Assembly: GCA_015065645.1 (NCBI GenBank)
Contig: SVPW01000012.1
Span: 1-56,664, forward strand
Direction of reading: 5' to 3'
DNA: 56,664 bases
Origin: Oscillospiraceae bacterium
GTDB lineage: Bacteria; Bacillota; Clostridia; Oscillospirales; Acutalibacteraceae
Under the pieces are notes generated by a model. That model did no database searches and was not told the origin of the DNA. It worked only from the letters and a program-made list of their open reading frames with translations. Both the position numbers and the translations under genes were made by a program. Of the stretch, positions 2,843 through 56,662 are shown one piece after another (the first letter of the stretch is position 1; each line of letters begins with the position of its first letter).

Positions 2843-3319
2843 ATGGCAAAGAATAACGAAAAGACCAATGTAATGCGTATTTTGGATTCCAAAAAAATTG
2901 AGTACACCCCTTTTGTTTATTCCGAAGATATGACAGAGGGCGTTTTAATTGCCGAGGCTTTGGGTGAGGATGTAAAGCAGGTTTTTAAAACTCTTGTTAC
3001 CGAAAGCCCCACAAAAGCACATTATGTCTTTGTAATCCCCGTTGCCGAAACACTTGATTTAAAAGCGGCGGCAAAGCAGGTGGGCGAAAAATCGGTTTCA
3101 ATGCTTAAACAAAAGGAGCTTTTGCCTCTCACGGGCTATATCCACGGCGGTTGTTCACCGATTGGTATGAAAAAACAGTTTGTAACCGTATTTGATGAAA
3201 GCGCCGAAAAATTTACCGAAATTTTTGTATCGGCAGGTAAGGTTGGCAGGCAGATAAAGGTTTCTCCTGTGGGACTTGCGGCTCTTATAAATGCAAAATT
3301 TGCAAAAATTACGGTTTAA
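2843..3319 (+). CDS. ybaK: Aminoacyl-tRNA deacylase of the YbaK family (Cys-tRNA(Pro) editing)
   Basis: 158 aa when started at the ATG one base after the rsmA stop; an upstream in-frame start would overlap rsmA. It has the YbaK/ProX fold. Motifs include the N-terminal 'ILDSKKIEYTPF', 'VFKTLVTES' and the catalytic/binding segment GGCSPIGMKKQF with the conserved Lys (about residue 122). The family hydrolyses Cys-tRNA(Pro), and some members Cys-tRNA(Cys), to correct prolyl-tRNA synthetase mischarging. It ends at a strong hairpin terminator. Confidence 0.92.
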   Translation: MAKNNEKTNVMRILDSKKIEYTPFVYSEDMTEGVLIAEALGEDVKQVFKTLVTESPTKAHYVFVIPVAETLDLKAAAKQVGEKSVSMLKQKELLPLTGYIHGGCSPIGMKKQFVTVFDESAEKFTEIFVSAGKVGRQIKVSPVGLAALINAKFAKITV

Positions 3320-52686: not shown

Positions 52687-53122
52687 TAAATGGGTTTAAA
52701 AATATATAATTTTTAAAAAATAGAAAAGTAAAAATCCGCTATAAATAATCACAGATAATAGTGAAGAGTGAAAAAGTAAAAATCCCCATTCTTACGAATG
52801 AGGATTTTTGGTCGGAGTAGCGATATAGTAATCAAGCGTAAACCCGCATAAATACTGGGTTTTTCGCAGCCAAAAACAGTACAAAGGTCTTGATTATTAT
52901 ATATTTTGTTGTTTTGAAAATCAAAAAAGGTATTTAATTAACTCCAAAGTTAATTACTTCAAAGTTAGTTGTTTGCATCAATGTAAATTGACCCAATCGG
53001 TCAGATTTCTTATTTTCATTCGGTCCGATTTTCGAAAAGTCAACATATTCAAAATATACCTGCCGCACCTGATATAAAGTAGGGGCGTAATAACGGTAAA
53101 CTATTGTGAACGAAAGTAAAGT
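52687..53122. other. Gene-free left flank of the accessory island
   Basis: It contains island repeat copy 1 (52760-52890), then AT-rich DNA with a short tandem-like pair (aaagttaattacttcaaagttagtt) around 52944-52968 and an imperfect ATCGG-type inverted repeat around 52995-53032 that may end the abi transcript. No gene seen. Confidence 0.5.
52760..52890. repeat. Island direct repeat, copy 1 (tRNA 3'-end-like core)
   Basis: Bases 52805-52890 match 56534-56619 with 4 mismatches in 86 bp, in the same orientation. On the minus strand the core reads cgctactccgacca, identical to the 3' end of a typical tRNA-Pro with CCA. It is followed by a terminator-like hairpin (aatccccattc...gaatgaggatt) and agtgaagagtgaa-type short repeats (52760-52772) also present in copy 2. 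Confidence 0.85.
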
Positions 53123-54040
53123 TTATTTTGAAGAATCTAAATTCGCTTTCTTCTCTACAGCAAGTATGAAATCCGCCATTGATACAGCGGCATTTACGAA
53201 TAATCGTGCGTGATGCTCATCAATATTGATCCTTGAAGCACCAACTCCATGAGCATCACTATCTTTATTTCGCATTTCTGAAATAGAGGATATAATTTTT
53301 TCAAAACCAGATAAAAGAGTGTTTACTCTGCGGTCAGTATTAGAATCAGTATGCATATTGTATAGGCTCTTAACCTGTCTGTATAAATCGGAAATATTTC
53401 CAGATGTGACTGGTTGAACCCCTTTTTTCTCTATAACATAGCAAAAAACCTCTTCCAGCAAAGTGCGAGATTTGGTAATTGCACTATCGTAGTTTTTTTG
53501 GTTCACATCATCCATTGCACGAGTTGAAATGCTAATAATGTATTCACGATCTATATTCTTGATCTTTGGAGCTTCAATTCTAACCGCTGTTCCAATCTTA
53601 CGGATTGTAAAGTTTCCGCGTTCGATAACTAATTCGTGGCCCCCAAAATATAGAGATCCATTTATGTGCTGAACGATGCTGGTTATAATTTTTTTATATG
53701 CATCTTCAATAACCTCTGGAGAATGTCCCGAAAGCATAGAACTAAACTGTTTTTTTGAAAACAAATATGATAATAAATCCGAGCATTTATTATTTTTGAT
53801 GCTATATTCCATTAAATTATCAAGATATTGCCAACGGCTTAAACTTCCTCCGCTCCATGAATAAGTAACAGGCAACCCAAATTGAGTTGAAAGAGCACAT
53901 AAGTCAGGCCCACTCAAACGCGGAAGAGAAATCTTGAATGAAGTTCCGTCAGCAAGGTGAATTTCTTCAAATGTAGTATCTCCGTCGAGTATAGCTAATA
54001 TTTCTTTTGTTCGTAAAAATTCAAACTCATTTGACGGCAA
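53123..54040 (-). CDS. Abortive-infection family protein (Abi_C, HEPN-like)
   Basis: 305 aa; TTG start behind AAGGAGG (7-bp spacing). The C-terminal Abi_C domain (about 185-295) contains AITKSRTLLEEVFCYVIEK, LYRQVKSLYNM and MRNKDSDAHGVGASR, a HEPN R-x6-H motif typical of RNase effectors, then HHARLFVNAAVSMADFIL. The N-terminal half is less conserved (target or sensor region). It lies 13 bp downstream of the zinc-ribbon nuclease gene, so the two form an operon. An RNA-cleaving growth-arrest effector in phage defence is inferred from the family. Confidence 0.83.
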   Translation of the reverse strand: MPSNEFEFLRTKEILAILDGDTTFEEIHLADGTSFKISLPRLSGPDLCALSTQFGLPVTYSWSGGSLSRWQYLDNLMEYSIKNNKCSDLLSYLFSKKQFSSMLSGHSPEVIEDAYKKIITSIVQHINGSLYFGGHELVIERGNFTIRKIGTAVRIEAPKIKNIDREYIISISTRAMDDVNQKNYDSAITKSRTLLEEVFCYVIEKKGVQPVTSGNISDLYRQVKSLYNMHTDSNTDRRVNTLLSGFEKIISSISEMRNKDSDAHGVGASRINIDEHHARLFVNAAVSMADFILAVEKKANLDSSK

Positions 54041-54053
54041 TTTTTTTACCTCC

Positions 54054-56170
54054 TTATTTCTTTTGTGTATCTTTATAGCATGCAGGGCAGCCTTGACCGT
54101 TATTGCGTTTAATTACTTGTGCCTCCCATTCATGACCACATTTTAAGCATTTCCACCAAACTTTTTTACCAGATTTAGGGAAAAAATCTGCAGGCGTTTT
54201 ACCGTTGTTTTTTGATATATCAAATTCTAAAGCTAATACTGGATTGATGGTTTCTAGATCATTATATCCGCGTAAAAGTCTATGATTGGAGCATATTGGG
54301 CACCCGTAACCTCGCTTTTTGGTATGTATCGTTTCTTGATAGCTGTGTCCATTTTTACATTTCCACCAATACAACTTTGTTCCACCATAAATTATATCAC
54401 TAGGAAGTACATCGTTTCTTTGTATGTCAAATTCTTCTGACAATGTAGGATCGCATGTTTCTAAATCATTAAAGCCTTTCAATAATTGTTTGTTATGGCA
54501 GAAAGGACATCCCTTGTGTTTGATAGTTCGTGAGAAGATTGTTGCCTTGTAGGTATGGTGCTTTAAACATTCCCAATAGACCTCTAACTTTGAGCACGGA
54601 AGATGATCACTGGGGGACGAATCGTTTTTTGCCGACCATTCTGCCGCCAATTGTGGATATTTGGTGGATAAATCGTTAAAACCTTTTAACAGCTTGCGAT
54701 TGTTACAATAAGGACAACCAAAATTTTTGATTGCTTTTTCAGATATTCTCATTTTGTATTCGCCATGGCAAACCTCACATTTCCAAAGAACGATTTCATT
54801 CGAGCCATACGAATAATTACTTATACCAAGTTCGTTTTTATCTGACCAAAACTCTGTAAATAAGGATGTGTTGTTCCTAGGTCATTAAATCCTGCTAAAA
54901 TTTTTTCGCCGGAGCAAATAGGACATCTTGGGGATTTAATAAATGATTGTGCAGTGCCGATCCATTTATGCCCAAGTGAGCAAATAAAATGTACTTTTTT
55001 TACGCTAGAAAAGGAAATTTGCTTTGGATTCAAAGCACCATTCATTGTAGTATCCCAAAACCGAAGAACTTGGGGGCATTTATCATACAAGGAATTGTTT
55101 TTTTCATTTAATTCTAGTAATTGATAAATTTGAGCACGATCGTTTTCAATGTCAATTGTAACTTCTTTTGTTTTGGAGTGCTCCGCGAGTACTGTATTTA
55201 GTATAAAGCTAATTGCATCTTCTAAAGATTTGGTATTGTTTGCTTGTACACTATACTTTACAGACGAGCTTGTATAATCGGGGCACCCAATCTCCCTAAT
55301 TCTAATCAGTTTGATGCCATTGTCTCTACACAATTTATCTTTTTGAGCATCACGAGTGGTATTTTTGTGCCAAGCTCTGCCATCATATTCTATTGCAATA
55401 TTGAGTGATGGTATAAATATATCAAATTCTTTCTTACCCAAAAATGGAGAATGAAAACTTTCAACCACATCAAGTCCTGCTTTTTGCAAATAATAAACAA
55501 TTGCTTTTTCTGGAAACGATATATGCATTTCTTTCGCACAAATAGGGCAGTTTGTTCCTTTTTTCCTGTTAAGTAATGTCGCAGAATAACTGTGCCCCTG
55601 TGGGCAAATAAACCAATATTTTTTATTGTTGCTACCAGCCATGACTTGATCTGGGGTGATTCCATTTTTTTCTAGATCGAATTCTTCTGCAATTTCAGGG
55701 TGTGTGGTTTGTAGGTCGTTGCAGCCTTGTAAAAACACTTTATGACTACACACTCCACACCCGGTATTCATTTTAATTCGGTGGTGCAAGGATGTGCTAT
55801 ACGAATGACCATTTGGACAGAGCCACCAAATGGTCTTTCCACTTCCTGGAGTGATGTCCTGCATTGAAAAGGAGTTTTTAGTTATATCAAATTCATTTAT
55901 TAAATCTTGCCTATCATTTTGTATGCACCAAGTAAACAAATCGTTATAACCTACAAGAACTTTTTTTCCTGCACAATAGGGACAGCCGCCACCATTTAGT
56001 CGGTTTGCTATTCGTGAATCATATGAATGCCCTTGAGAACATATCCACCAAACCTTTTTGTTGCTACCAAGAGTTAATGTTTTAGGGTCAAAACCTAATT
56101 CATTATTCTTTTCCCAGTTCCATTCTGCCATCAGTTCGGCATTATCAATTACGTATTTCTTTTCTGCCAT
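54054..56170 (-). pseudogene. Zinc-ribbon-repeat protein with an embedded PD-(D/E)XK/Vsr-like nuclease domain, frameshifted
   Basis: Two frames (56170-54821, 449 aa; 54752-54054, 232 aa from its first ATG) join if one base is added near 54856. The second frame stays open upstream, encoding EFWSDKNELG and LWKCEVCHGEYK, another repeat. Restored length is about 705 aa. Order: three DUF4379-like zinc ribbons (WWIC.QGH...GCPYC type), a nuclease-like domain (about 215-300; PEKAIVYYL, KKEFDIFIPSLNIAIEYDG, then AWHKNTTRDAQKDKLC and IKLIRIRE), then five more ribbons. ATG behind GAGGTG. It precedes the Abi_C gene. DNA binding/cleavage is inferred. Either recently inactivated or a sequencing error. Confidence 0.8.
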
Positions 56171-56208
56171 AACCTTGGCACCTCGCTTTTGTAAATATTT
56201 TCTATTAA

Positions 56209-56237
56209 ATTATACCATAAAATTTTCCAATAGTAAA
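56209..56237 (-). promoter_or_regulatory. Promoter of the zinc-ribbon/abi operon
   Basis: On the minus strand TTTACT (56232-56237), 17 bp, TATAAT (56209-56214), about 38 bp before the ATG. Confidence 0.65.
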
Positions 56238-56318
56238 CAAGCACTGTTTTGTGAAAAAACAAATAAGAAAGGAGTGATGTTATTTGTTTGTTTAATAATT
56301 TTGAATCAGTAAAAATTC

Positions 56319-56662
56319 GACTGGAGAATGTGAAAACATATAAACTGGCGCAAAAAAGAAAATGCCGAAATCGGCATTTTGCGAAATTTTATAAATTTGT
56401 CTGCGAAGCAGACACCGAACTTCTTCACTATTACCTCTTACCTATTACTTCAAAATTCCAAGGACTTTTTTAGTGAAGAGTGAAGAGGTAATAGGTAATA
56501 AGTAAAAATTCCAAGAACATAAAGTCCTTGGAATTTTTGGTCGGAGTAGCGTTATAGTAATCACGCGAAAACCCGCATAAATACTGGGTTTTTCGCAGTC
56601 AAAAACAGTACAAAGGTCTATTTTTAACGCACACCAACCATTAAAAAACACATTCTCCAGTC
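56319..56662. repeat. 14-bp terminal inverted repeats around a 344-bp segment
   Basis: GACTGGAGAATGTG (56319-56332) and its exact complement CACATTCTCCAGTC (56649-56662) face each other around island repeat copy 2. This resembles a MITE-like element. The right arm is 2 bp from the window edge, so its full length is unknown. Confidence 0.6.
56472..56619. repeat. Island direct repeat, copy 2 (tRNA 3'-end-like core)
   Basis: Partner of 52760-52890. The 86-bp core 56534-56619 is about 95% identical and includes tggtcggagtagcg. The hairpin beside it has a different stem sequence (attccaag...cttggaat) but the same position and size class as in copy 1, so structure is kept while sequence differs. 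Confidence 0.85.

Follow-up and report, generated by a model that had tools for sequence, protein, structure and literature searches.

A two-gene island between direct repeats

The window analysed here is the entire contig C6 (56,664 bp) of a draft Oscillospiraceae genome in 51 contigs. Near its right end, a two-gene operon lies between direct repeats: the upstream gene (gene 1) encodes, in an interrupted frame, a putative DNA nuclease with repeated DUF4379 modules, and the downstream gene (gene 2) an AbiJ protein, a predicted suicide RNase of the HEPN family. Our leading, though tentative, reading is that the island is an integrase-less cassette resembling a cis-mobilizable element (CIME), in which the nuclease would restrict incoming DNA and AbiJ would back it up. 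Each ingredient is already known; the combination appears to be new. The features concerned are as follows (genomes, contigs and loci are cited by our handles, G, C and L).

52778..52809, minus strand: terminator-like hairpin, just outside the left repeat and past the operon end
52804..52890, plus strand: left copy of the 87-bp repeat, palindromic 23-bp core at 52840-52862; at its outer end the other strand reads tRNA-3'-like (..ACTCCGACCA)
53123..54040, minus strand: AbiJ (Abi_C/HEPN) gene, 305 aa, R257-x6-H264
54054..54752, minus strand: broken nuclease gene, second ORF, 232 aa, 3 complete DUF4379 modules
54821..56170, minus strand: broken nuclease gene, first ORF, 449 aa, 4 complete DUF4379 modules and the nuclease domain
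55187..55522, minus strand: EDxHD/Vsr-type nuclease domain
56209..56237, minus strand: extended -10 promoter-like site of the operon
56300..56344, minus strand: 5' limit of the stretch in common with the unit of genome G046
56533..56619, plus strand: right repeat copy (87 bp), with its core at 56569-56591

A first-pass annotation of this DNA had described 86-bp repeats enclosing a single operon with its own promoter and no integrase or transposase. The repeats are real, although 87 nt long: they differ at 4 positions (95% identity), lie on the same strand and start 3,729 bp apart. Between them are just two genes, both on the minus strand and separated by 13 bp. Neither is a recombination or transfer gene; a Pfam scan of the two detected no integrase or transposase family, and no DNA methyltransferase is present in the operon. 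The proposed promoter has a candidate in the extended -10 site, with a similar site seen by eye upstream of related units, but across the region such sites are no commoner than chance (16 against a shuffle mean of 15.2). The right repeat ends 45 bp before the contig end and, the window being the whole contig, sequence past it is not visible. When 60 related genomes were searched with the island's left part plus the adjoining flank, repeat-type matches and no conserved copy were returned; conservation as core sequence, which the first pass had named as refuting its view, does not count against it here.

AbiJ as the last gene of restriction-type operons

The assignment of gene 2 made in the first pass was upheld. 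It matches AbiJ in PADLOC over residues 1-298 of 305 (7e-83) and Abi_C in Pfam (1.8e-19), and it carries the HEPN R-x4-6-H motif as R257-x6-H264, invariant in 16/16. The modelled structure is mostly helical (pLDDT 79.8, pTM 0.48), with the motif region (259-266) below 50. By sequence, no significant relative was found in the PDB (best E 0.53).

To place AbiJ in context, 28 loci were assembled: 22 from named contigs, 4 from a class search and 2 from viral contigs. The class search matched 6/391 genomes, a figure that counts the source genome and a locus regarded as a duplicate; L055 was dropped because its contig and that of L042 have the same length (863,493 bp), and the two were taken to be one locus. 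In 17 of the 28, AbiJ is preceded by a gene or operon of restriction, BREX or helicase type. In 15, a restriction-, helicase- or nuclease-type gene directly precedes it on the same strand (L028, L030, L031, L032, L033, L034, L035, L037, L038, L043, L048, L069, L070, L247 and L248; in L031 the restriction-type gene is 280 bp away, and in L048 AbiJ is truncated). In the other two, the restriction-type gene stands one gene further off (L041, HsdR-type; L042, BrxL). The systems represented include type I, II and III restriction-modification (R-M), McrC and BREX. The nearest AbiJ relative (L028, 75%) follows a helicase protein with a nuclease domain, which is matched by the EDxHD-domain profile built here (1.6e-4). 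A passage of PMC3710099 reports AbiJ proteins without N-terminal domains to be more frequent in R-M operons. We conclude that AbiJ is a promiscuous, interchangeable last gene of restriction-type operons. As separate observations, AbiJ ends a BREX-type operon in L042 and follows a T5orf172-domain gene in L248, a viral contig.

Gene 1 belongs by family with homing-type nucleases

Gene 1 had been annotated as a single protein of about 705 aa with eight zinc-binding modules around a nuclease-like domain. It proved to be interrupted, occupying two ORFs in different frames of 449 aa (56170-54821) and 232 aa (54752-54054). The module count holds insofar as the two parts contain 4 and 3 complete DUF4379 modules (Pfam) and an eighth falls at the break, but the set is spread over a broken gene. 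These treble-clef modules stand on both sides of an EDxHD/Vsr-type domain, which agrees with the nuclease-like domain noticed earlier. The closest relative found, in G046 (L085), is intact, 696 aa long and has 8 modules. The break may be a mutation or an assembly error, and the window copy may consequently not work; a programmed frameshift was considered unlikely (by eye only), the L085 protein reading through unbroken. In-frame stops also occur in 5/62 match rows of the order-wide DUF4379 search.

An alignment of 15 nuclease domains showed D34, E45, H52 and D58 to be invariant. E5 is likewise invariant (15/15), but a motif containing it had guided the choice of sequences, 4/18 domains without this start motif having been dropped. 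The invariant set agrees with the catalytic residues that we take to define EDxHD. The nuclease-domain profile matches PDB entry 3r3p, 'Mobile intron protein' (2e-4), which we take to be I-Bth0305I. Among PHROGs, gene 1 matches an 'HNH endonuclease' family (1.5e-43) and two homing-endonuclease families (2.5e-15 and 2.1e-9). An HNH identity was rejected, HNH being the name of the PHROG family only. PADLOC gave no convincing match for the large protein. In all, 310 phage records matched and, among the 25 listed, related proteins are annotated as 'Hef-like homing endonuclease' or endonuclease. Of 15 loci taken from viral contigs, L250-L263 lie among other phage-like genes (by eye) and L249 adjoins a recombinase-like ORF; a search of viral contigs with the 449-aa ORF confirmed no relative. 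Phage intron endonucleases combining CapR/DUF4379-like repeats with an EDxHD/Vsr-like domain are presented, in a portion of a 2025 study (PMC12350094), as a large outgroup to the homing endonucleases that had gone unrecognised. On the strength of the PHROGs and 3r3p matches and of PMC12350094, gene 1 is by family a predicted homing-type nuclease, nearer to homing endonucleases than to a known defence protein.

DUF4379-type proteins are also found in solved structures, under the names mS66 and mt-SAF33 (PDB matches), so the module is used outside nucleases as well. At L081:5248-6345, an RNase III with a dsRNA-binding domain overlaps a DUF4379 nuclease gene.

Partner genes are exchanged between related units

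The first-pass annotation had viewed the two genes as a dedicated defence system, a claim that can be assessed by counting neighbours. At E up to 1e-3, AbiJ was absent from all 53 DUF4379-type loci and DUF4379 from all 28 AbiJ loci, flank lengths varying in both sets. The 53 comprise 52 loci fetched for DUF4379 matches together with L084, which has the repeat and no DUF4379 gene. The 52 are the class-search matches (10/391 class genomes, own included), L083 and most order-search matches (46/394 order genomes), 11 places being left out (G521:C27, G450:C126, G513:C10, two in G776, G459, G781, G488, G492, G740 and G711:C71). Genes with fewer than three modules (L077, L230) were dropped from the counts, and G538 C16 and C48 (L135, L136) are possibly two parts of one unit. 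By the refuting condition that the first pass had itself set, namely homologues of the large protein mostly without an Abi_C partner, a fixed two-gene system is not supported in these loci.

Instead, the nuclease changes partner. In the most similar units the next gene encodes DUF2513 (L085 by Pfam; L130 and L136 alike by eye) or a small protein of membrane type (L128, with L084 similar by eye), while others, such as L129 and L132, have no close following gene. The 5' region of the window unit is 89% identical to that of the G046 unit over 236 nt, up to about 56344, and their partner genes differ. Elsewhere, DUF4379 genes are accompanied by short proteins with a hydrophobic start (L073, L076, L133) or by unrelated genes. 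At L075:3348-5126, a weak ApeA-HEPN match (0.005, below cutoff) follows two DUF4379 genes.

DUF4379 nuclease genes favour tRNA 3' flanks

Genes with at least 3 modules number 53 in 52 loci, and 39 of them have the nuclease domain (local profile). A same-strand tRNA gene lies within 600 bp upstream of 9 of these 39, against 0/14 of the DUF4379 genes without the domain, 3/326 of the remaining ORFs (150 aa or longer) at these loci and 1/236 in the AbiJ loci. The difference between 9/39 and 3/326 gives a Fisher value of 1.3e-7 for loci that are not independent by descent. DUF4379 nuclease genes thus favour tRNA 3' flanks, and the tRNAs concerned are of five kinds.

The 87-bp repeat resembles the end of an integrative element

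The palindromic core of the repeat, AAACCCGCATAAATACTGGGTTT, is exact in both copies; with up to 4 mismatches allowed, it recurs neither elsewhere in the window nor in 20 shuffles. A 118-base repeat query matched 45/394 order genomes at 1e-4, most rows covering the core only, and 13 longer copies were aligned. Five of these follow a DUF4379 operon, all in one relative orientation (window left, G046, G731, G538 and G010 C44). A further copy, G010 C82, is past a partner-type gene at a contig start, and the setting of the right window copy cannot be judged at the contig end. All 11 copies for which both sides are present show a tRNA-3'-like tail and then a terminator-like hairpin, a count made with no shuffle control; the tRNA-like part is only about the last 10 nt. 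In G001 this tail varies in step with the 3' end of a nearby tRNA-Leu. With its palindromic core, tRNA-3'-like tail and terminator, the repeat resembles an integrative-element end.

In G588 and G585, the hairpin array that precedes the G046 unit joins, at the core, the outer half that follows that unit. After the core, 34 and 38 of 45 positions are identical to the outer half, against 16 and 17 of 45 to the unit's own end; before it, 71 and 63 of 76 are identical to the array. A global alignment of the joined flanks alone discriminated less well, with 144 and 153 identical positions as opposed to 140 and 146 for array plus unit. Being other loci in other genomes, these represent the same type of site and not an orthologous empty site. 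The short-hairpin array itself (L085 about 2970-3260, L150, L151) follows tRNA-Pro in L085 and G585, is joined to the repeat core and looks like a small element of its own.

The core also occurs alone, directly after guaA (by eye) and often at contig ends (L155, L157, L158, L161, L162, L164, L210), where it probably marks a family of guaA-targeting elements; in L210 it is about 1.2 kb from a PHROG integrase gene. In G023 and G491 the repeat adjoins ParA-like genes (by eye). Rfam gave no match for the repeat at the gathering threshold in seven loci (one tRNA only), permissive matches in the window were all below gathering, and an exact 30-nt repeat pattern was not found in viral contigs. Two identities for the repeat were rejected: a whole tRNA pseudogene, since ARAGORN finds no tRNA there, and an integron attC site, no match to the consensus being seen by eye.

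Around the island, the stretches 52730-52815 and 56412-56531 are hairpin-forming dispersed repeats rich in TTCACT/AGTGAA, found also on contigs C17, C30 and C50 of the same genome and in related genomes. An inverted 13-bp pair occupies 56319-56331 (GACTGGAGAATGT), at the 5' limit common to related units, and 56650-56662 (ACATTCTCCAGTC), at the contig end. In a same-locus comparison, a neighbouring 185-aa HD-domain protein has matches of 46-47% in 4/61 genomes (genus search), weaker matches resembling longer HD proteins; synteny not having been traced, the comparison shows no orthologous empty site.

Discussion

Possible roles: restriction backed by suicide, or a selfish nuclease

In the reading that we favour, gene 1 would encode an elongated nuclease whose roughly eight DUF4379 modules attach to a long DNA site, to be cut there by the EDxHD/Vsr-type domain. 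AbiJ would be kept in check while DNA cutting works; should this step be overwhelmed or blocked, AbiJ might cleave cell RNA, by analogy with PrrC behind PrrI. The most likely role would then be restriction of incoming DNA backed by suicide, on a cassette whose movement would depend on a recombinase acting in trans. The pairing of a nuclease with growth arrest put forward in the first pass retains its appeal, in that AbiJ is full-length and its relatives stand behind restriction-type genes in 17/28 loci, which makes a nuclease backed by a HEPN RNase reasonable defence logic; its nuclease component fares less well, the large protein being apparently nearer to homing endonucleases and broken here. 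Movement by a helper, one of the two routes suggested at the same time, gains in likelihood from the resemblance of the repeat to the end of an integrative element. Restriction of phage DNA in the absence of a methyltransferase, if the nuclease does achieve it, would require self to be distinguished from non-self through the reading of a long site.

A number of observations weigh against restriction by a mobile cassette. The window provides the single example found of a DUF4379 nuclease paired with AbiJ. Gene 1 falls in a homing-type family, and no methyltransferase is there to mark self DNA. Eleven of the 28 AbiJ loci, some of them cut or unannotated, have no restriction-type gene ahead (L029, L036, L039, L040, L044, L045, L046, L047, L049, L068, L071); they show no preceding gene, an unknown or masked gene, a weak match (methyltransferase, 0.007, in L047), Abi-type models (L029) or a cut or fragmentary locus (L046, L049). 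No tRNA is seen beside the window unit, and the exact repeat tail is not among three own-genome matches to the tRNA-3' pattern. No recombinase could be tied to the repeat: around the integrase of contig C17 of the same genome, the core is absent at up to 4 mismatches from the surrounding 6 kb. Six of the 13 long copies (G001, G054, G023, G491, G588, G585) have no nuclease gene beside them, and the right repeat adjoins the contig end.

Alternatively, gene 1 might be a free-standing homing endonuclease that spreads into near-tRNA sites or excludes rivals there, with AbiJ as a passenger or an element-keeping toxin; a suicide RNase would then ride on a selfish nuclease. We regard this as unlikely, yet a serious competitor. 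Its nearest relatives are the PHROG homing-endonuclease families and the PDB mobile-intron protein, its domain combination is that of the outgroup described in part of PMC12350094, and its phage relatives carry homing-endonuclease or endonuclease annotations among the matches listed. The tRNA adjacency and the existence of broken copies (the window copy and the rows with in-frame stops) fit equally. A homing gene would, however, be expected inside a cleavable site, and none is shown; the nearby tRNAs are of several kinds instead of a single target, and the AbiJ partner is otherwise found behind restriction operons. The habit of AbiJ favours defence, whereas the family of gene 1 and the lack of a methyltransferase favour selfishness. 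Since intact relatives exist, both readings are testable.

The island could also be a chance interval between ordinary dispersed intergenic repeats beside a contig end, enclosing an operon that was itself perhaps horizontally acquired. The long copies without a nuclease gene, the occurrence of the core alone in most matched order genomes, the other dispersed families adjoining the island and the closeness of the right copy to the contig end all point this way. Such a coincidence is made improbable by the five long copies, out of 13, that come immediately after a DUF4379 operon in one relative orientation, and by the exchange of partner sequences precisely at the core in G588 and G585. Least probable in our estimation is a decayed relic without present function, AbiJ alone perhaps being expressed as a solitary Abi protein: the broken frame of gene 1 and the single example of the pair suit it, but AbiJ is intact with all motif residues present, and in a draft of 51 contigs the break may be an assembly error.

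The restriction reading may be carried further, to a proposal that we consider rather speculative and put a little below that of selfish homing. Mini-islands whose ends are conserved while their interiors can be swapped, many of them next to tRNA genes, would form a family in which a homing-type DUF4379/EDxHD nuclease had become a modification-free restriction enzyme, its suicide back-up being provided by interchangeable genes downstream (AbiJ HEPN, DUF2513, small membrane proteins). If true, this would amount to a modular defence cassette of nuclease plus effector, intermediate between selfish homing genes and restriction systems.

Comparison with known systems

The island joins the DUF4379/EDxHD nuclease family, AbiJ as an interchangeable last gene and integrase-less near-tRNA cassettes. 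Among the titles and abstract openings listed in literature searches, none brings these together, and none reports a HEPN partner for a DUF4379 nuclease. With the AbiJ proteins of R-M operons, as treated in a section of PMC3710099, gene 2 has in common its HEPN family and motif and its place as last gene behind a DNA-cutting enzyme; here, however, a DUF4379/EDxHD nuclease stands ahead in place of an R-M, McrC or BREX gene. PrrC behind PrrI (same section) provides the model for the mechanism, in which a HEPN RNase backs up a DNA nuclease, but it belongs to another HEPN family; gene 2 has no NTPase domain, and the island no R-M system. The phage-intron homing endonucleases set out in the relevant part of PMC12350094 have the same repeated treble-clef modules and nuclease-domain type, whereas the present gene lies in a bacterial operon, without an intron, has modules flanking the nuclease domain and is followed by a HEPN partner. 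CIMEs are defined, in the portion of PMC5704250 that concerns them, as cis-mobilizable elements with att-like ends and no recombination or transfer genes. The island departs from them in having two genes only, with ends deduced from sequence and no resident integrative and conjugative element (ICE) shown; it resembles them in its att-like ends, its lack of recombination and transfer genes, its tRNA-associated relatives and, possibly, ends in common with larger elements.

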